The notes under the pieces: generated by a model
The model's database searches: none
Seen by the model: only the letters and a program-made list of their open reading frames with translations
Told to the model about the DNA's origin: nothing
Shown: positions 13,077-64,000 of the stretch, piece after piece
Layout: every line of letters begins with the position of its first letter
Numbering within the stretch: position 1 is the first letter of the stretch
Program-made: the position numbers and the translations under genes
NCBI GenBank assembly: GCA_028753945.1
Contig: JAPNXP010000002.1
Coordinates: 5,394,001-5,458,000, forward strand
Reading direction: 5' to 3'
Source of the DNA: Hexactinellida sp. DTS-2022
Lineage: Eukaryota > Porifera > Hexactinellida
DNA: 64,000 nt

Positions 13077-15051
13077 CAGGGGTGGGAAAACTTTTTGCTT
13101 CGCGGCCCGCATTTTATGCGGGCCGTATTCACCAACGAGGCTACGACTACGTTCCATGTGGTAATTTATTAGAGAAACTTAATAGCTAATTGTAAAATAA
13201 ACAATAATCATAAATAATAATTTTTCTAATAGTGTTTAATGAGAGCAATGCAGTTGATTCTGCATTTTTATTAGTTTGTCAAAATTTGGTTCTTTTGGTG
13301 ATATAGCAATTCGCATAAGCTGATCAAGGTGTTCATCTGTCATTACAGATCTTGATTTATCCTTGATGAACTTCATCCTGGAGAAAGCCTGCTCACATAC
13401 ATATGTTGAACCAAAGAGAACAAGAATCTTACGAGCCAGAGATTTTAAACGTGGAAATGTGGCATCATTCAGGGATGCATAAAAACCTGAGAGTGACATC
13501 TCCCGAAAATTATCCCTGAGTAAGTTGTCACTTTGCAAATCTATAATTTCCATTTGCAGATGAGTGGGTATTCCCTCCACTTCAACTGAAAAAGGCCTGG
13601 AAACAATGGACATATCTACATTTACAAGATCGAAATCTCCGAATCTTTCGGAAAATTCCTTGTGCAGATCTTGAAGCTTTGACGCCTAGTATCCCAGCTT
13701 GTCACCACAAACTGATGTCTGCTTGAGTGTAGGCATATGGTCGCAGTTGCCTTTGTTAATTTCTGGATAAATGAGCTGCAATTTGGCTTTGAAGGCCTCC
13801 ACCTTTGCATGCATATTGTGAGCCAACATTTCCTGGCCTTGCAAGTGGGTATTTATCTCGTTCATGAATTCCATTATGTCAACTGCAAATGTGAAGTCAG
13901 ACAACCACTCGCTATCATTTAGCTCAGGAAAGTCTGAAGCCTTATCTTTCATGGTCAGGAAGATGTTTATTTCTTCCCTCAACTCCCAACTCTTTTAAAT
14001 ATTTTTTCCCAGACTCAACAATCTTACTTTCGTATGATAGGGGACTTCAGCATATGGTGCTTCCATGTCTAGCAGAAAAGCTTGAAACTGCCTATGATTT
14101 ATCCCTCGAGCTTTGATGTAATTGACAACCTTTGTCACTACATCAGAAACATTCGTCAAACCAAGAGCACCCTTGCATAAGGCATGCTGGTGGATAATAC
14201 AGTGCAAGAATATTATATTTTGGTCCGGATTCTCAATGTGGAGTTGATCCTGAAGCTTTTTCAGTAATCCAATATGTTTTCCTTTTAGGTTGGGGCTACC
14301 ATCAGTTGTGACGTTCACTAGCTTATCCCACGAAATTCCCAGTTTCCCGATGCACTCATTAACTGCCTTTAACAAATCTGGACCAGTATTTGTACTTTTC
14401 AATGGCTCCATTGACGCGAGCTCTTCCGATATTTTAAAGTTAAAGTCAATAGTGCGAATATATATTAGCAGCTGGGCTGTGTCCTTGATATCAGTGCTCT
14501 CATCAAGTGCCAAAGAGAAGCAGATACAGTCTCTACATTCATCCTTGACTTGATCATGTAAATCTGCTGAGATTTCTTCTACTCTGCGGGTAATTGTTCT
14601 TCTGGAAAGACTGACACAGTCAAATGTTTTCGTCTCTTTAGGACAGAGAATATCAGAGCATGCCAGCAGACAGTCCTTCACGAGCTCTGCTTCACTGAAG
14701 GATTTACTCTCCTGAGCAATTTTATGAGTTACTACAAAACTAGCTCTGGTTACTGCCTCATTGAAAGGTGTCTGAGTTGTGAACACTTGTTGTTCATTAA
14801 GCAAAGAATGTGTCTGTTTCTCAGCTAATGCTTTCTTCTCTAACTTTGACATGTTTCTGTGAGCTCTCGCATGTTGTGTGTTATAGTGACGTCTGACATT
14901 ATACTCCTTGTATACTTCCAGACTCGCTTTACAAAGCAAACAAACACATCGGCCATTCACTTCTGTAAAGAAATATTTTCCTCCCCACTCTTCATTGAAA
15001 ACGCGACATTCCTTACTCTACCTTTCTTTTCTTTGAAATTTTCGAAGCCAT
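13077..15051 (-). mobile_element. hAT (Charlie-type) element with one terminus
   Basis: The left end has the classic terminus CAGGGGTGGGAAAACTTTTT, followed by a hairpin of GCGGCCCGCAT/ATGCGGGCCG. The transposase gene occupies most of the element on the minus strand. No matching inverted terminus is seen beyond 15,051, so the right end has been lost or lies in an unrecognised rearrangement. The element begins exactly where MITE E ends, so it appears to have inserted into the edge of that MITE. Confidence 0.8.
13236..15051 (-). pseudogene. hAT transposase, GTF2IRD2/ZBED5-like lineage, nearly whole
   Basis: The likely start codon is at 15,051 (MASKISKKRKV). One frameshift near 15,012 separates it from ECRVFNEEWGGKYFF, after which one frame runs to 13,236. 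A BED/zinc-finger-like segment (CVCLLC, then RRHYNTQHA) lies near residues 40-70. It is followed by the RNase H core (LALDESTDIKDTAQL, VTTDGSPNLKGK, FLHCIIHQHALC). The C-terminal hAT dimerisation segment includes STYVCEQAFSRMK. The main frame contains two in-frame stops, TAA near 13,996 and TAG near 13,686, so about three lesions inactivate a roughly 600-residue protein. The lineage also gave rise to vertebrate domesticated genes, but here it is plainly a transposon. Confidence 0.85.
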
Positions 15052-18679: not shown

Positions 18680-18941
18680 ACATATACACCAATATCATCG
18701 CTGTTGAGAAATTAGCATTCTAATACACCCTCACACAGGTTGCTTTTTTAAGTTTACTTACTTTGAATATACACAAGAATATTTGGAACTTGAGGTTAAA
18801 TAGTATCTTACATAATATTCTGCAAAATCTCGAACTTTAGTATTACGCCTAAGGGAACCAATATTTAACACTATTGAATCGCATTCCTAAAATATTTTCT
18901 AAATAGCTTTAAACTAAAATCCAATTACCTTAGATGTTCGA

Positions 18942-19475
18942 TTAAGGTTCAGCTATACCTACAAAATCCCAAAATTTCGATAAAATCCGAAACTATGGTA
19001 AATCTCGTTTTTATTCCATTTTCGGATTGTGTGGATACCCATGTGGACTCTAACGAAATTTCAAAGAAAAATTCCAATTATTTCTCCAGTTTGACATACT
19101 TCGAGTTATGAAAAAAATATTGGGGTTCTGGTGTTGGTTGCAGGATGCAGTATACCATAGAAACTTCATAATTTCGCGACATTGCCGCATATAGGTCTTA
19201 TCTTATATTTGGATAGAACAGCATATATCGCATCTTAATTTCAAATGTTATGGAAAAATATTGAAAACTTTCAATGATACACACTTTTTAGTGTCCTCCA
19301 CCTAAGCCCCTACTATAGGAGACAATTTTTTTCAAACCTCGCTATCTCCAAACTCAATTATTGCCATTGCGGAAGTCATATTATGACTCATGTACTACCT
19401 AGAAACAAAAACTCAACGGTTTTGGACCGCTTTCAATTAGTTCTATCATATGAGTGCAGCGATTTCATTTGTAAC
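18942..19475. mobile_element. TTAA MITE family A (long subtype A2), truncated
   Basis: It begins at TTAA with GGTTCAGCTATACC and matches the reverse of the copy at 24,755-25,637. Similarity stops near 19,475, just after GAGTGCAGCGATTTCATTTG. The missing half suggests a deletion before or during formation of the adjacent P-like region. Confidence 0.7.
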
Positions 19476-19736
19476 CTTTATCCGTGACCTACGTAATATA
19501 TGGCCTAGGCACAGAAAAACCATGGATAGATTAAAAGGATAATTTTATATTGAACCATAATATTGATTTCTGAAAGCCTACTTATCACACATCTACCATT
19601 TATGTCTATTTTTAAAATTCCTAGAAAATTTCGTTGACTATACCCCGAGTTTATTATAATTTTCATGTCCATCTACCCTCTCTTATTTTCTTTTCTTTCT
19701 CACTTGAATATTAGCCAGTTTTTTTCTTCATTATCA
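19476..19736. other. Flank of P-like copy 1; no TIR seen
   Basis: AT-rich sequence upstream of the first P-like transposase. The 75-bp TIR of the element at 41.7 kb is not present here, so this P-like copy belongs to a different family or has lost its end. Confidence 0.5.
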
Positions 19737-20166
19737 ATGCCCAATACATGTTCAGTTCCCAATTGCAGAAGCAACTACAAGGCAGAAGCTTATACACCTG
19801 TTTTTTTCTTTACCTAAGTCTCAAGTAATAGCGGACAAATGGCGACGAGCTATTTGTAGAGAAGGAGCATTTGAATTAAAGTCCGTCTATGTCTGTTTTA
19901 AGCATTTTCGCGAGGAAGATATCCTAAGAACATTTGAAATTCATCAAGCCGACGGCTCAATACAGCATATTGAACGTTCAAAACCCAAACTATTAGACAC
20001 TGCAATTCCTTGTATCCTACCTGAAAGTCCGAAATACTTATCTTCCAAAGCTAACAAACCTTCCCGCCTCTCGTATGAGTCTAAGGAACAAGAATTGTTT
20101 GATGAAGCGGTGAGAGCTAGCATTGGCGAACGACTTGCCGAAGAAAAAAAATTCAAACTACGTGAC

Positions 20167-21562
20167 TTAAACCGTAGACTGCGGTTGTGATTTTCAGGAA
20201 AATAACTTAAGGTCCAGGTATACTCTAGAGCACTTCTACCAAAAGTATTTACCCAATTTAACTCAATTTTTTACAGCGTATATGCTTCTTCTTCAGGATG
20301 CCAAAAATACAATAATATTGGCATATAAACTAAGAGAGGAAAAATCTTTTTTTTAATTTTACCACTATTGGGTAGAAGATCAATCAGCAAAGATGAACAA
20401 GACCAATAATATTATTGATTGAATGTGTTTAGCTGGATGTAATAAATCTAATGAGTGCAGGAATTGTGAATATCTGGATTTTTCTGGATTTCAAATACTT
20501 TTATGTGATGTCGACTTTCAAATGAAGATTTTCCTGATCCAAAATCCAAAAAGCACATGAACTATCCATAATAGAATAAATCGCTGCACTCATTAGTTGT
20601 ATCTTCACGAGATCTATCCGAAACCGTTGAGCTTTTGATTCCACGACCAAAATTGACAAAATGACCTATTACACAAAACTGAAAATGTTAGTTTTGAGAT
20701 AGCGGCTTTTGAAAATAAAAATTACAGCAAATATTCCTAAATTGAGGTGACCAAAGTGTGTCAAACTGGAAAAATAATAGGAATTTTTCTTAGAAATCTC
20801 TTGAGAGTCCTCATTGGTATCAATACAATCCCAAAATTCGATAAAAGAGAAATAGACAATGATTTGGATTTTATCAAAATATTCGAAATTTGTAGAGTAT
20901 ACCTGGACCTTAACCTGTAGTTCTTTGTATATAATATGTAGAACCTATAATTTGAAATCCAACAAGAGCAGAACAATATATTAATATTACGAAATTTTTG
21001 TAAAGATTTATTCGAGGATTTAGACAAAAAGTGATGACACATTCTTTCTCTTTAAATCGATATAACGCCGTTAATATATAAGTAATCCTTTGTTTCTAAA
21101 CAGAAACATATACGACTATCTTATTTGTTATCAGATCTCAAAATTTGAACAATTCTGCATCAGGAAACTAAAGTTACGTCATTTTCATAAAAATGATAAA
21201 TCTGTATTTGATGAACCATGGATTACGAAAATATACATATATTTGAGTTATATCTGTCACAACTCTATATTAGTCCACCCAAATTTCCTAAACAGATAAG
21301 ATTAGTCTAATATCTTCTTATGGGTATCCCCACGGTGAGATTTTAACATTTCTTATCTGCAAAAAGTAAGAGGGTGGCAAGTGGAGCAGTTCACTTTTAT
21401 GCTACGTCATCATAACAAATTCTGAAAATTTTGATTTTTTGATTGAAATCGATTGAGAATACAAAACCTTGTTTAAATCCGAATTTTCTCGAAATTTGAA
21501 TGATTAGATCGACATGTTTCCCTCCTGACACAACGTGTATCAGTTAGGCAGTATACAGTTAA
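20167..21562. mobile_element. TTAA-flanked element family X, copy inside the P-like gene
   Basis: TTAA occurs at both ends with terminal inverted repeats of the type CCGTAGACTGC (left) and CTGTATACTGCC (right, minus strand). It interrupts the transposase after KFKLRD. It is itself interrupted by a family A MITE at 20,207-20,913. Other X copies or fragments lie at 29,168, 46,803 and 59,930-60,647, and related ends at 37,235 and 48,087. Confidence 0.75.
20207..20913. mobile_element. TTAA MITE family A, copy nested in element X
   Basis: TTAA-flanked, with both ends reading GGTCCAGGTATAC instead of the usual GGTTCAGG. The substitution is present symmetrically at both termini. Removal of the MITE restores continuity with other X copies (…TTTTCAGGAAAAT then CCTGTAGTTCTTTG). 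Confidence 0.85.
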
Positions 21563-23209
21563 GGACCTGATAGAAAAGCTTCCCTCATTATCTTTACCTG
21601 ATAACTGCATTCAATGGTACTCTGATGATAATATCCTTCACTTAATACGACTTTCGTTTACTGAGCCCTCTGTATCAATCGACTCAACTCTGACCATTAT
21701 CAGTTGTCTTAACGTCCAGCCCTTTCGGAGGGGGAAGTTATAAAGATTTATACGGAGGTTATTAATGATATCAGACAGATTGAAACAATTTTTCTTGAAA
21801 TAAATGACAAACAGAGAGTTCTAGAAGTTCCATCCAACAACGCGTATCAACATATTGCTAAGGCCTCAAATCACATCGAGCAGTCTATAGAATTGCTTGA
21901 AGAAGCTATTAATCGAGACACAGATTTAGAACCTAATTCAATGTCGACTGATTCGTCTGATACACGTTCACACATTTCTCGTTTACAGTTTGTTTTGTGT
22001 CAATTAAAGAACGCAATTGTTCCTTAGAAAAGACGGAGGTATAATATTATCACACAGGTAGTCGCATTAAAATCTCACCTCATCTCACCAATTTGCTACA
22101 ATTATCTACAATCTCTAGACTGTTTTTCCCTCCCCACCATAGGAATATCCAAAAATTATTCTCAAATGTCGGGATAGATAACGACTATTTTGTATACCTC
22201 AAGCAGGCTACAACACAATTACTCCACAACAACGTAACGTCATAGTACTGATGGACGAGATCCATGTAAAATCTGAATTAACATACAAAGCAGGAAAAGT
22301 TATTGGTTCTTCGAGGAATTTTAACGAACCAACTCGTACAGTCTTAGCTCTAATGGTTTCAAGCTTACACAAGAAATGGTCCACCATTGTTCGTCTTATT
22401 CCCTGCTCTACGACATCAGCTGAAACTTTATTCCCTCTGGTTAAGCGAATTATCTGTGATATCGAACTGTAACCTTCAGGTTAAAGTGCTGTGTACTGAT
22501 AACTACCCTCTGAACGTTAGTATCTTCAAATTATTCTCAACTTCTAAAACTTTGGATGCTGCAGTCCCACATCCTTGTGATTCTAGTCGTTCATTATTTC
22601 TAATGTTTGATTTCGTTCATATCCTGAAATCTATTCGCAACAACTGTCTAAACCTTAAAGACTTCAATAAGATGTTTAGATACCCTCAGTTTGAAAATTT
22701 GGACATTACGGAAATTGCATCATTCGAAGATGTACGTTTACTGTACAAATCTGAGCAGAACAGCATCATTAAGTTAGCTCCGCGCCTTACAGTGAAATAT
22801 TGTTGGCCATCAATATTGGAACGTCAGAATGTCAATCTTGCTTTAAGAGTATTTTGCGACTCTACTGCAGCTGGTCTAGTTATCCAGAATTCCTCCAGGA
22901 AGAGCTTTATCTATCAGACTTCCGATTTCATCTGGTTAATTAGCATTGTTTGGAAAATATTTAATGTAAATACTCCTGTGAAAGGAATGCTCCCTTCCAC
23001 TTACCAACAATGATGCCAGATTTAGTTTTATTAATCACCTTGTCGCATGGCTTGATCACTGGGAACATTTTCCAGTAAGTGGAAAATTAAGCAAACAAAC
23101 ATTCACAAGTTTCAGACATTCATTAATTTCCCTCGCCAAAATAGTCAATCACTTAAAACTGAGAGCTGTGGTTTCGATTATGTTCTAACCTATTTCCTTC
23201 AAAACGATC

Positions 23210-24754: not shown

Positions 24755-25637
24755 TTAAGGTTCAGGTATACTCTAGAGCACTTCTACCAAAACTATTTAC
24801 CCGAATTAATTAAATTTTTTACAGCGGATTTACTTCATCTTCTAACCAGCAAAAATGCAATAATATTCGATCTAGGTAACTCAGTTAAAAAATTTTATTC
24901 TATAAAATCGTAATTTGCGGAACGGATAGGTTTTTTCCTGCTAATGATTAGGAGTAGATTGTTGTTGCTTTGTATTAAGAAACTCCTAAACTATCATATG
25001 AGTGCAAGAATTCTTTTAATCACTTATGAGTCAAATTTTTCATCAATAAATGTGGACATCACTTATTTCATCATCAATATATTAAATAAAAATAAAAATA
25101 AAAGTTAAAAATGAAATCGTTGCACTCATATGATAGAACTAATTGAGATCTGTCCAAAACCGTTGAGATTTTGTTTCTAGGTGGTATATGAGTCATAATA
25201 TGACTTCCGCAATGGCAATAATTGTGTTTGGAGATAGCGAGGTATGAAAAAAAGTGTCCCCTATGGCAGTGGCTTAGGTAGAGGACACTAAAAAGTCTGT
25301 ATCATTGAGAGTTTTCAATATTCTTCCAATATATTTGAAATTAAGATGCGATATATGCTGTTCTATCCAAATATAAGATAAAACCTATATGTGGCAATGT
25401 CCCGAAATTATCAAGTTTCCATGGTATACTGCAACCGGCAACCAACACCAGAACCCCAATATTTCTTTCAAAACTCGAAGTGAGTCAAACTGGAGAAATA
25501 ATTGGAATTTTTCTTTGAAATTTCGTCAAAGTCCACATGGGTATCCACACAATCCGAAAATGCAATAAAAACGAGATTTACCATGGTATGGGGTTTATCG
25601 AAATTTTGGGATTTTGTAGAGTATACCTGAACCTTAA
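24755..25637. mobile_element. TTAA MITE family A, long subtype A2 (883 bp)
   Basis: TTAA at both ends with GGTTCAGGTATACTCTA termini. The interior differs from the 708-bp subtype. It matches the truncated copies at 18,942-19,475 and 58,175-58,420. Confidence 0.85.
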
Positions 25638-26001
25638 TGACATATCATTGCTAAGTAAGATCAATAGGAATTATTGGAATAAAAATACATACTGCCCTTC
25701 TGATGCATCCATAGTCCAAAATTTCATTATTGTACCCAGGCCTTATATTACGTAGGTCACGCTTTATGGCTCATCAATATCAGCAAAAAATTATGGTCTC
25801 AGCTTATCCATTGTTTTACTATAGAACACTTATACATAGTATATAATGAAACAACCATTGAAATTTCCATTTGACAAATACTTTTTTTGATTTCAGATTT
25901 TTTAGATTTCGCTAATGTTAAATTCCTATACCCTACAGGGTTTGCGCCAACATTCCCACAAAGGTGTATATACAAGATTTCAAGTTGAATGTTATTCTAT
26001 C
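25638..26001. other. No recognised feature
   Basis: AT-rich gap. A TTAAATTCCTATACC motif at about 25,919 echoes the dispersed repeat at 11.4 and 39.4 kb. Confidence 0.4.
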
Positions 26002-41739: not shown

Positions 41740-41746
41740 GATTAAC

Positions 41747-41821
41747 CATAGCAATCTATATACTAAGGCAATGGCAGTCTATTGAATTTATGGACCATGG
41801 ACTGCGAAGTAATGCTAATTT
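41747..41821 (+). repeat. Left 75-bp TIR of the P-like element
   Basis: Starts CATAGCAATC and ends AATGCTAATTT. Includes the palindromic ATGGACCATGGACTGCGAAG segment. It matches the reverse complement of 45,591-45,665 without a difference that I can see. Confidence 0.92.
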
Positions 41822-42232
41822 TGAATTACATTATGGAGGCTGTTTTAGCTAATATTTTATATAAAACTAACTAACTAGAGTATATTTAATCATCCCTATC
41901 CTATAAATGCATTTACTAATGGTTCTGACAACATTCAAAAATATCATATTTCGTATCACCGGAATCTCTCAACTAAAATTATGTTGAAGAAGTAAAAATT
42001 GTCATAAGTTATAATAAAAAACTCATAAATACATGCTATACTTAGTTAGTAAACTTTAGAGTCCTATCTTAGGGCTACTTTTTGTGATATAACCAAAGAT
42101 GCGCATAATAACTATCATTTTATTTCACATCATAGCAACCCATAATTGTTATTTACAATATTTATTATATATTAGCAATTTTGAAAATATTGTTGTTTAT
42201 TCTACTAGTGCTTTGAATACCATTCTAATAAG

Positions 42233-45200
42233 ATGACAACTTGTATTGTACCTGGTTGTAATTCCAACTACCATAATCAAATGAAGTTTACTTCTATCTT
42301 TTCTTTTCCTAATGACATCGTTTTGCGGAGAAGTGGTTCCGAGCGATACCTAGGCCGCGAGAAGATTATGAGATGAACAAACATTTAAAGGTGAACTTTT
42401 TATTATTACACAATTTGAATTTGATATTCCTTATATTCATTTATATTTTAAGGTTTGTATACACCATTTTCATGAGGAGGACATTGAGAGAACGTTTCTA
42501 TTCCATGATGGGACTAAGATGGTGGAGATGGTAAAGAAGAAGATCACTCTGAAGAAGTCCGCAGTACCATCTATCTTCCCAAACTGCCCTAGTTATTTGA
42601 CAGATGTGGCTACAAAACCCCAAAGACTCTCATGGCACGATAAGGAGCAGAAAAGAGTTCAAGAAGCTTGCGAGAAAAGCCGCATTGATCATGGAGAAAC
42701 TGAGGCTAAGTTTATCGTTTCTACTCTTAGATGCATTTTTAGTAAATTGTATCTAATTCAACTACCTAATGGTTGGCTTACCCATCAACCCAATTTCAAT
42801 ACCATCATATTTCTTAAAATTCAATTTGATAATAACGTATCAACCATCGACCGTTCTATTATTGTTGATGAAAATCTATTTTGCAAAGCTTTTTATAGGC
42901 AAACTTATAAGATTGAGTTATCTTGTCATACTCTCAATGATATTAGGTCATTAGAAAATATCATACATGAAGTTGAATTATTTGAAATCAGCCATGATAA
43001 CCATAATTACTCCAGTTCTTCAGCTACGCCTTTGATAAACCACATCGAAAATGCAATTCACAACATTTCTAGTGCTATTGATACATTAGAGCCCAGTAAT
43101 TCCTCAGATTTGGAAATCGAGAGGGATTCTATGCGTATTCGTCTTAATTTTTTGCTAGATCAGTTGAAATACCTAATTGTCGATAAACACGGTCGCCGTT
43201 ATAACATCCTCACTCAGGTCTTTGGATTGAAAATTCACGGAATTTCTCCAGCTTGTTATCGTCTTATTCAAGGTTCTAATTGTCTAATTCTTCCACATGA
43301 GCGTAATTTATTAAAGATCAAAAATAGCATTGGCTTAGAAAGTGAGTATACTAAAATTCTTAAAGAAGTTGCTACCACATTTAATGATTTAGAGCGCCAT
43401 GTCATTCTTCAAATGGATGAGGTTCACATTCGTAGTGATGCATCTTATAAGGGAGGTAGGGTAATCGGGTCGATTGACAATCCAGATGATCCACATACTA
43501 CAGTCTTTTCGATTATGGTTTCTAGTTTATCGACCAAATTTTCACTATTGTTCGATTAATTCCTCTAGGTTCCTCTTCTGCAGAAACATTGTATCCAGTT
43601 GTGAACTCCACTATTCGTGACATTGAATCTTGCGGTCTTTCTGTTGAAGCTGTGTGTACAGATAATTATCCATTGAACGTGCGTCTATACAAATTGTTTT
43701 CAGCTGATTCGAAATTAGAACCAAAAGTACAACACCCATGTAACCCACAAAGAAGTTTATTTCTGTTTTTTGATATCGTTCATATCATCAAGTCTATCCG
43801 GAATAATTGGTTAAATCTTAAGGATTATGAGAACACGTTCATTTTTCCAAAATTTGATGAATGTCAATTCAGTGCAAGAAAAGTCGTCTCCAATAAAAGT
43901 TTAATTGTTTCTATCCCGACTGCGAATATATCAATAGATCATTTTACCTCTAGCTCTACCTATCCTGTACTATGTTATGCACCCTTTCAAGACATCCGTA
44001 ACTTGTTCAAATCCGATAAGTTTAATATCCTAAAACGAGCACCCAAATTGACAGCTAAAGCGTGTTGGCCCTCTAGGTTAGAAAGACAAAACGTCAGTTT
44101 AGCACTGAAAATATTCCATGAAACAACATCTGCAGGTTTATTAGCCTTGAAATTGGAAAATAACATAGTGGATACCACTCAAACTGTAGAATTTCTTGAT
44201 ATAATGGGCAAAGTGTGGAAGATATTTAATGTAAATTGGGTCGGAAAGAATATTCGCTTTAAGGATGATTATTTAGCTCCAATTTATCCAGCAGATTTCC
44301 GTTTACAATATATAAGTAAAGTTGTCTCTTGGTTAGATAATTGGGTAAATCTGCCATTTATATCGGGAAAGTTAACTCCGCAAACTTTTACCAGTTTTCG
44401 ACACACATGTGAGGCGTTACCACTGCTGGTCAAACAACTTATCGAGAACTGCGGGTATAAGTACCTTCTCACTGCGAGGATCCAAAATGACTCTCAAGAA
44501 CACCACTTTGGTTTATATAGACAAATGTCAGGGTCTCACTATCACATTTCATATAACCAAATCTTAGAAAGCGAACGAAGACTTCAACTTTCGAACATAT
44601 TAAAGGTGTTTGCTATAAAATATGGTTCCACTAACACTGAAGACAGTGTTTCCTTAAAAGAATATCTTGCTCAATTTTCGGATGATGTAGATTCCATAAG
44701 CGACGAACAACTCAGCTTTGATATTGAATTGTACATACATAAATTGAATGAAATTTTTCTCCCAGACTTCGAGGTTTCTCAGAATGAATGTCTGATCTAT
44801 ATAGCGGGATATGCAGTCTTCTCTTACTTTAAAAAATCTAATGGGTGTCTATCTTGTCATAATTTCTTAACAACAGATAAACCTCTTGAAGTTAATAATG
44901 ATGTTGGGTCCCAGTATACCTTGATTGATCTGGTGGATAGAGGCTCCCTGAAGTATCCTTCTTATCATGTGGTAAAATCTCTTTTTATATTGTATGAAAC
45001 TTTTGTAAAGATTGATAACTGCGATTGCTTGAAAAAAGAATTCTATTCTGGACCATCCCGAAACTTGCTGGTAAACATATGTATGAACATTATTGCAGAG
45101 AGGAATAATAACGTGTGGAAAGATTGGTGCATATGTAATGTTTGGAACTGGGATATTCTCAAAAAGCTTTGTGTAACTTGGGCAAACATAATCTTGTCAA

Positions 45201-45268
45201 AGAGGGTTCGTAATTACAATGTCGCCGTTTTAAAAAGGGATAATACCAAACTTAAAAAATACAACTAA
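42233..45268 (+). pseudogene. P-element-like THAP transposase, two single-base frameshifts
   Basis: Exon 1 starts at ATG 42,233 (MTTCIVPGCNSNYHNQMKF…FPND). Near 42,327 a missing base shifts the frame; the expected AEKWFRAIPRPREDYEMNKH lies in the next frame. Exon 2 (from 42,453) continues VCIHHFHEEDIERTF and SAVPSIFP, completing a C2CH THAP domain with its AVPTIF-type tail. The core has MDEVHIRSDASYKGGRVIG, a second lost base near 43,545 (before TIVRLIPLGSSSAETLYP), VCTDNYPLNVRLYKLF, SLFLFFDIVHIIKSIRNNW and NDSQEHHFGLYRQMSG. These carry the D, D and D-x2-E positions expected of P transposases. The C-terminus has DRGSLKYPSYHVV and ends KKYN. Total length would be about 990 residues, within the range of P/THAP9 proteins. 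Confidence 0.9.
42391..42452 (+). other. 62-bp intron in the P-like transposase gene
   Basis: Donor AAG|GTGAAC and acceptor TATTTTAAG|GTTTGT lie in phase 0. Splicing joins NKHLK to VCIHHF inside the THAP domain. The intron is AT-rich and contains stops in the coding frame. P-like copy 1 at 19.7 kb has no intron at this place. Confidence 0.8.
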
Positions 45269-45590
45269 TACTTAAGTAATTATTTGTTTCCTCTACATAT
45301 ACGTACTACAAGAAGTTTGTCAGTGTTTAGAAGATGGTGTGCAAGAAGTAGATGATCCCTGGCTGCTACGGACTGAATTTACTATGTTTTGTACTTATTT
45401 GTGTATTAATATGTGTAGTAATATTGGTATTTGTTGTTAAGAGTTTCCAATTAAAATCTACATTTTTCCAATTATATTTATTGTTAATATTGAGCTGGAT
45501 ATTACTATAAGTTGAACGTGGAAGAAAGTGCTATAATTCAGGAGCATTTAGTTGTATTAATAGATTAAGTAGCAACATATGAAAACTTTG

Positions 45591-45665
45591 AAATTAGCAT
45601 TACTTCGCAGTCCATGGTCCATAAATTCAATAGACTGCCATTGCCTTAGTATATAGATTGCTATG
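45591..45665 (-). repeat. Right 75-bp TIR of the P-like element
   Basis: Reverse complement of the left TIR. Ends GATTGCTATG immediately before the flanking GATTAAC. Confidence 0.92.
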
Positions 45666-45672
45666 GATTAAC

Positions 45673-62278: not shown

Positions 62279-64000
62279 ATGGCCAGTCGAGATACTCTGT
62301 ATAGACCGCCTTCCAGTAGTGACAGCGACGACACGCCACCCGAAACCACCTGCTCACAGATGAGCCTGTCCAGTGTGGGGTCTCCGATGACACCGTCCCT
62401 CAGCCAATCCTTAGGGGACTTCACATTCGCGACACCGCCGCCAATACAATCTCCGTCGCTGCGAAATTATAAACCGAGGAGGAAAAGATCCCGATTCTAC
62501 GGAAATCAATTCTCAATGAAGAAAGGGCTCTCTGCGAAGAAGTTGAGAGTCGGAACAACAACGCCCGAAACAATACACGTTCCGCATAGCTCTAAAGACA
62601 CCGCAGCATCGCGAAAGTTGGACTTCCCGGATCACTCATTTCTACCTGCGATTCAAAATATCAGGGTCCGGAGTTCTGAAGGAAAAGTTGAGGAAGTAGA
62701 TGTTCTTCCAGTGACAGGTAATGTTATTCTAAATGTCGAGTCTTTTGTTTCAATTCTAGGTGAAGTAGCTGTGTGCAGGAATTGTCAACTTGGTACATTA
62801 GAGTTGTATCAGAAACCATACCACCTGTCCTGTGCCACGCAGCTCATGTTCCGCTGTAAACAGTGTCTTACCACCCGAACATTTTGGAGCGTGAGCGGCT
62901 ACTTCAGGTCAAGTATTGAGCTCGGAGAGAAGAAGATATCCAGATGCAATGATATTATGTACAGCAGTGTCTTGGGAGGTCGACTTTGTGGAATTGGAGA
63001 ACCCAACCTCCGTTTGTACCACGCCTGCATGAACTTGCCACCGCCACCAACAGGTCCCTCCTTCCAAAGAATACAGAAAGATCTGCTAATTGCTAGCGAG
63101 TATGTTGCCAACAATACCATGATGCAAGCGAAGATCGGGTTAGAAACAATCCTTGGCATCAATCCCCTAACCAACTGTGTGCACAGTGTGGTCTCCTATG
63201 ACGGCGCCTACCAGATCAGGTCGAAGAAAGGCGGAGGAGGTTACAGCCCGTACTGCTTCGCTGCAGCTATTTCAGTAGACACCGCGAAGGTAGTAGCTTA
63301 TGATGTAGCGTGCAACATCTGCAGACAGTGCAACATGTATGCCAGTAAATTGAGAGATAACGAGATCACAGAAGAAGAACATCACAACTGGCATATTGAA
63401 CACAAAATCACTTGTCCTGCCAAATATTCTGAGTACGCGTCCGTTCACTTAGAATCACTCTTAGCGCCTCTCGTAGTACAACAGGCATATGACCGAGGAA
63501 TAATATTCAGTGGGGTAGTTTCTGACGGGGACAATAAGACAGATGCAGCACTGAAGGATGCAGATATTTATAACAGCTTGGGATTTGACTTGGAGATCGG
63601 GAGACTGGAGTGTCTTAGTCATGTCCTAAAGAGGATGAAGACCAACCTGTGTAAGAAACAAGAAGTGGTGCTGAAAGATGCGAGAACTTCAAAGAAAGTC
63701 TATACTAAAGAGCTGATAAAGAAAGGCAAGAGTAAGAAAGAGGCTGCTAAATTACTATCAAAGGATTAGCAGGGAAGTCTACGAAGAGTTTCAAAGAGCA
63801 GGGAAAGTTGGAAGAGTTCTGAGACACCCGTTGAAATCAAACATCTTTCTGAAGCGATGTGCGGGCAGATAGCAAGCTATTATCGTCTTGCTGTACAACG
63901 GAACAAGGGAGACACCGACGCCATAATAAAGGCAGTGAAAGCTATACCTTACCACCTAGGGGCTAACGACATCAACGCAGTAGAATACCACCGATACTGC
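62279..64000 (+). CDS. Mutator-like (MULE) transposase, runs off the window; one in-frame stop
   Basis: The ATG at 62,279 opens a Ser/Pro-rich, then basic N-terminal region (KPRRKRSRFYG) likely to act in DNA binding or nuclear import. A zinc-binding cluster follows: CRNCQ near residue 165 and CKQCLTTRTFW near 200. The catalytic domain shows VVSYDGAYQIRSKKGGGGY (first Asp near 306), CNICRQCNMY, HLESLLAPLV, VVSDGDNKTDAALKDADIY (second Asp near 416) and LECLSHVLKRMK. This is the pattern of the Mutator-like transposase domain (PF20700 type). A TAG at 63,767 ends the first frame, yet the same frame continues to the window end with HLSEAMCGQIASYYRLAV and KAIPYHLGANDINAVEYHRY. This looks like one mutated codon in an otherwise open gene, unless a splice removes it. 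The C-terminus lies outside the window. Confidence 0.8.

Follow-up and report, generated by a model that had tools for sequence, protein, structure and literature searches.

A 3,919-bp element with perfect terminal inverted repeats (TIRs) lies at positions 41747–45665, on the forward strand, of the 64,000-nucleotide stretch of the Hexactinellida sp. DTS-2022 genome analysed here (hereafter the window). It begins with CATAGC, ends with GCTATG and carries a single two-exon gene on the forward strand (42233–45268). Self-comparison of the window returns a 76-nt inverted repeat with 100% identity (41746–41821 and 45591–45666); because one of these 76 pairs is formed by target copies that match by chance, the TIR proper measures 75 bp (41747–41821, forward, on the left and 45591–45665, reverse, on the right). 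Each TIR contains an inner block, TGGACCATGGA, at 41791–41801 in the left end and 45611–45621 in the right. The 28-bp terminal block is found in the window at the two element ends and nowhere else when up to three mismatches are allowed, against an expectation of zero from shuffled sequence. The element is flanked by a 7-bp direct repeat, GATTAAC (41740–41746 and 45666–45672), and the interval 41740–45672 singled out in the earlier note corresponds to the element plus both target copies.

The element is an insertion into one copy of an older repeat that is empty elsewhere. We joined both flanks with one GATTAAC and queried the host genome with the resulting sequence: of the 41 listed places, 38 extend through the join, and the other three are the window's own flanks (two) and one partial match. 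Seven of the 38 empty sites were aligned base by base, and each has GATTAAC just once, at an ungapped junction. Since the empty sites carry a single GATTAAC, the ends are exact and the duplication is 7 bp, not 8 bp. The earlier note had described a 3,919-bp element with identical 75-bp TIRs and GATTAAC on both sides, which the perfect inverted repeat and the empty sites confirm; it had also considered that genome copies might place the true ends elsewhere, and the empty sites put them at 41747 and 45665.

Four near-full-length sister copies elsewhere in the genome (L009, L010, L011 and L013) are 99.3–99.5% identical to the window copy, and further copies at ∼93–98% are fragmented or truncated. 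A 32-bp end sequence occurs 87 times in the genome with at most two mismatches, while its reversed control does not occur at all. The intact siblings that the earlier note expected do exist: L009, L010 and L011 are open in both exons (53 + 938 codons around a 62-bp intron), although the right end of L010 lacks its final bases and borders directly on other sequence. Of the five near-identical copies, the one in the window has the largest number of private differences, 18 in 3.9 kb (14 substitutions and four single-base deletions), compared with one each in L009 and L011, four in L010 in addition to its lost right end, and seven plus a 4-bp insertion in L013. The insertion in the window is thus young, as proposed, but not the youngest of its group. 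The near-identical open copies mark a recent spread of P-type elements, which may be continuing. In L013, the 4-bp insertion falls just before the intron and creates one 1013-aa frame that is open through the THAP domain (1231–1345 of that locus).

The window gene is damaged. Exon 1 (42233–42390, forward), which would encode the first part of a THAP finger, has a single-base deletion near 42327, and exon 2 (42453–45268, forward), which would encode the remainder of the finger and the catalytic core, has another near 43545. In both cases the base is absent only from the window copy and is present in all four of the sisters compared. As assembled, this copy cannot make a full transposase. Two frameshifts had been taken to be its only lesions; both are indeed in the assembly, but upstream of the gene there are two further single-base deletions. 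It is unlikely, though it deserves some weight, that the two frameshifts are assembly errors in a copy that is in truth undamaged: sequencing error can leave single-base deletions, which make up four of the 18 private differences, whereas the 14 substitutions are what ordinary decay would give.

The two exons are separated by a predicted 62-bp intron (42391–42452, forward) inside the THAP domain, with GT-AG borders and phase 0. The position is conserved: of the 33 exon pairs that could be placed, 32 are separated by a GT-AG intron at one phase-0 point within the THAP finger, ahead of V/I-C-x2-H-F. Interval length varies between 55 and 644 bp across the placed pairs, and in-frame stops are present in 23 of the 33. 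The sole exception, L013, lacks a standard splice arrangement. This comparative support agrees with the earlier proposal of a 62-bp intron in the THAP domain and suggests that the intron is spliced; its retention would be expected to disrupt the DNA-binding finger. It is very unlikely that the intron goes unspliced and that the first half of the finger and the rest of the protein are made separately or by read-through. Such a reading could draw on the 1013-aa frame of L013, which is open through the intron region, and on the 62-bp introns of subfamily A, which have no in-frame stop, but it fits poorly with GT-AG borders at one point in introns of such different lengths, most of them closed by stops, and only splicing restores the C2CH residues in one frame.

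The product of the spliced gene resembles a P-type transposase, as judged from the open sister L009. Exon 1 of L009 matches the THAP family (PF05485, E = 9.4e-8, over the cut-off), and the C-x2-H-F motif at the start of exon 2 appears to complete the finger; its C and H are invariant in an alignment of seven subfamily representatives. L009 also matches the TNP-like RNase H N domain (PF21787, E = 8.4e-13, over the cut-off). A phmmer search against PDB sequences matched the Drosophila P transposase (6p5a) with a whole-sequence E-value of 1.7e-10. With the family profile the overall E-value is 1.9e-11, with i-Evalues of 9e-10 for the stretch that includes E531 and 52 for the stretch that includes D303. 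D303 and E531 are named as catalytic residues in the account of the Drosophila enzyme (PMC7776569). Alignment to 6p5a identifies two of the three catalytic residues. The glutamate of NDxxEHHFG (codon 44498–44500, forward) aligns with E531 (i-Evalue 2.1e-6), in the D-x2-E block that the earlier note had listed after two D blocks, and this block holds the third catalytic residue. The aspartate of CTDNYPLN (43661–43663, forward) aligns with D303, weakly when taken alone (i-Evalue 0.73). A third acidic residue, the aspartate of QMDEVHIRSD (43416–43418, forward), lies inside the PF21787 match, is unaligned to 6p5a and is presumed to be the first catalytic residue. All three acidic residues, together with a D-x2-H motif, are invariant in the seven representatives. 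The GTP-binding domain (PF21788) is detected only marginally, with 19.2 bits in L009, 21.6 in L038 and 24.9 in L033 against a cut-off of 24.8. An AlphaFold model from the seven-sequence alignment is too poor (pLDDT 47.6, pTM 0.39) to corroborate the fold.

The window element belongs to a large and diverse family. A protein search of the host genome gave at least 54 listed matches, with 50 of 4,234 candidates scored, and the more distant subfamilies share ∼72–79%, 59–60% and 56–58% protein identity with the window family, alongside decayed copies. These subfamilies have the same ends, intron position and 7-bp duplications as the window element. In the fetched loci, 19 of 35 exon-2 starts are open for more than 880 codons. 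The transposase is likely under purifying selection, as measured on few pairs: dN/dS is 0.12–0.16 in the six of 21 subfamily pairs for which dS could be computed, and dS exceeds 2 in three of them. PF21787 matches at least 150 scored places in the genome (928 candidates), and the subfamilies described here are only part of its P-like load. In the TIRs of ten copies (20 ends) from subfamilies A to D, two segments are nearly invariant, the outermost ∼28 bases and an inner block close to TGGACCAKGGA that lies ∼45–57 bases from the end; the bases between them vary. Three ends depart from this: one of subfamily A' has a gap of 6 bases in the outer segment, and two of subfamily D each carry one change in the inner block. 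No internal tandem repeat was reported in the 75-bp TIR. The conservation pattern suggests that the inner block may be the THAP binding site.

Superfamily assignment of transposons makes use of the length of the target duplication, which mirrors how far apart the two active sites lie in the transpososome. We scored duplications in 28 two-ended copies, which comprise the window copy and those at 26 of 40 loci, one of which contains two copies; the other 14 loci lack a scorable pair of ends, and three spurious pairings were dropped. The duplication is 7 bp, with varied sequence, in 25 of the 28. The remaining three have an identical 8-bp duplication within shared flanks and therefore look like one duplicated insertion. 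One more 7-bp pair, GACCCAG, joins L012 and L027, whose ends are ∼24 kb apart. Pooling the 7-bp duplications gives a loosely palindromic consensus, GTTNAAC. Among the 24 distinct sequences, 28 of 72 mirror positions are complementary where 18.2 are expected, a count reached in 41 of 10,000 shuffles. Members of two subfamilies, L011 (on C10) and L043 (on C8), share an identical insertion point, to the base, in a 366-bp repeat (92.6% alike). When the L011 site is joined, all 40 listed genome matches cross the junction (40 scored of 630 candidates), and the site in this repeat is possibly an insertion hot spot.

We conclude with high confidence that the window element belongs to the P superfamily, as the earlier note had proposed, and that it is a copy of a cut-and-paste transposon that was active recently. 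A THAP finger, a P-type core with the PF21787 domain and an alignment to 6p5a, a probable D-D-E triad whose first D is placed by conservation only, and TIRs all point to this assignment. A THAP finger alone is not P-specific, being carried by Kolobok elements too, but Kolobok targets TTAA and duplicates 4 bp, and the match of the core to PF21787 and to the solved P transposase, together with 7-bp duplications of varied sequence, leads us to reject Kolobok or another THAP-bearing DNA transposon superfamily as a highly improbable source.

Within the P superfamily, the window element represents a new family whose stagger is one of the less common ones. The ends of the P element start with CA, as do those of the window element, and both transposases have a THAP domain and an RNase-H core with D303 and E531 aligned. 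The Drosophila P element is described with an 8-bp duplication, 31-bp TIRs and a solved transposase (PMC7776569), whereas the window element has 7 bp and a 75-bp perfect TIR, in line with the earlier remark that its TIRs are longer than those of P. That note also gave 8 bp as the usual length, which is what is reported for P, without taking up 7 bp as a fixed trait of this family. Binding sites of the P transposase are placed at 53–63 and 41–51 from the two ends, and that of Galileo near 70 (PMC3688188); the inner block is equidistant in both ends of the window element and, by that description, unequally placed in P.

Galileo, compared here by its published description, is among the closest known systems. 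It is reported to make 7-bp duplications, rarely 8, at palindromic sites such as GTATTAC and GTANTAC (PMC4168063), with GTAGTAC given as the preferred site elsewhere (PMC2775673), and its TIRs are said to reach 1.2 kb with internal repeats (PMC3688188). Galileo and the window family are alike in a THAP-bearing transposase with P-type D-D-E and D(2)H motifs, in TIRs longer than those of P, in 7-bp duplications with rare 8-bp ones, and in a palindromic preferred site. They differ in that the TIRs of Galileo are long and internally repetitive, as against 75 bp here, and in that the preferred site here is GTTNAAC. The window element in effect combines the workings of a P element with the stagger of Galileo, on ends that are shorter. 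Zebrafish Pdre2/THAP9 is likewise P-type and has ends that start with CATA, as here, but its summary lists 13-bp TIRs, 12-bp subterminal repeats and 8-bp duplications (PMC10983969), unlike the 75 bp and 7 bp of the window element. The Anopheles gambiae genome, in the account available, resembles the host genome in having THAP-bearing P elements in several subfamilies, seven of them with full elements; these differ from the window element in their TIRs of 27–31 bp and 8-bp duplications (PMC1562414). In the titles and abstract openings that made up the literature searched, we recognised no P-superfamily element with 7-bp duplications outside Drosophila.

These features are compatible with the following scheme. 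The spliced gene would yield a transposase of ∼991 residues (the open sister has 53 + 938), and its THAP finger may recognise the inner block in both 75-bp ends. The RNase-H core, with its D-D-E residues, would then cut at CATAG...CTATG, and the ends would be joined to the target at points 7 bp apart on its two strands, at loose palindromes resembling GTTNAAC. The window copy, although non-coding, has perfect ends, and sister transposases could mobilise it in trans.

The more interesting aspect of this genome is that related P lineages differ in duplication length. The element L068 (C12:4896600-4900800) has CACAGCCTACGT as its ends and an open frame of 1002 codons in which the THAP domain is uninterrupted. 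Its protein matches PF21787 (E = 8.7e-15) and falls just below the cut-off for PF05485 (E = 2.4e-4, 22.3 bits, cut-off 23.9), and it shares 36% identity with the L009 protein over nearly the whole length. All seven copies examined (L068 and six others, drawn from L069–L080; a same-scoring copy at C1:3108674 was left out) are flanked by exact 9-bp duplications, no two alike in sequence; the three copies in or beside simple repeats (on C2, on C4 and one on C1) are less telling. One copy of a related element with CACAGAC ends has a 9-bp pair with one mismatch, and one copy of another lineage, with CATAGCC ends, has a 7-bp duplication. In the sampled copies, CATAG ends accompany 7 bp and CACAG ends accompany 9 bp, and a CCATGG-type inner TIR block is common to both sets of lineages.

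We think it probable that the P superfamily of this one genome is split by stagger, with 7 bp in lineages with CATAG ends, the window element included, and 9 bp in those with CACAG ends. In that case the stagger of the P transpososome can evolve, its length going with end sequence and clade, and is not a constant of the superfamily. Transposases of both kinds, partly intact and within one genome, offer natural pairs in which to ask what sets the spacing. The literature searched, as far as its accessible text goes, holds no 9-bp P lineage; the closest case there is Tetris, described as a Foldback transposon without coding capacity that makes 8–10 bp duplications (PMC4079207).

Several other features were observed in the window and the genome. 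A second P-like element, decayed and more distant, lies at 19746–23013 of the window and contains many stops; its THAP halves are at 19746–19860 and 19891–20043, and pieces of its core extend to at least 23013. Around it are 542-bp inverted arms, 92% alike (18941–19481 and 25098–25638). We considered these arms as long TIRs of the second element and rejected them: no matching flanking duplication was seen in the adjacent bases inspected, and a 21-bp end sequence of this type recurs nearby. A 496-aa ORF at 62279–63769 matches a Mutator-like transposase family (PF20700, E = 1.2e-32). On the reverse strand, a 321-aa ORF at 13995–14960 has a Spin-doc zinc finger and a DUF4371 match under the cut-off, and looks transposon-derived. 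Elsewhere in the genome, L035 (C1:15251500-15260800) is a large palindrome with two subfamily-C elements head to head; its flanks recur in L032, ∼120 kb away on the same contig, and the palindrome is either a duplication or an assembly fold-back. The terminal 400 bases at each of four contig ends hold no simple telomere repeat, and three of the four ends consist, by eye, of tandem repeats of ∼200 bp.
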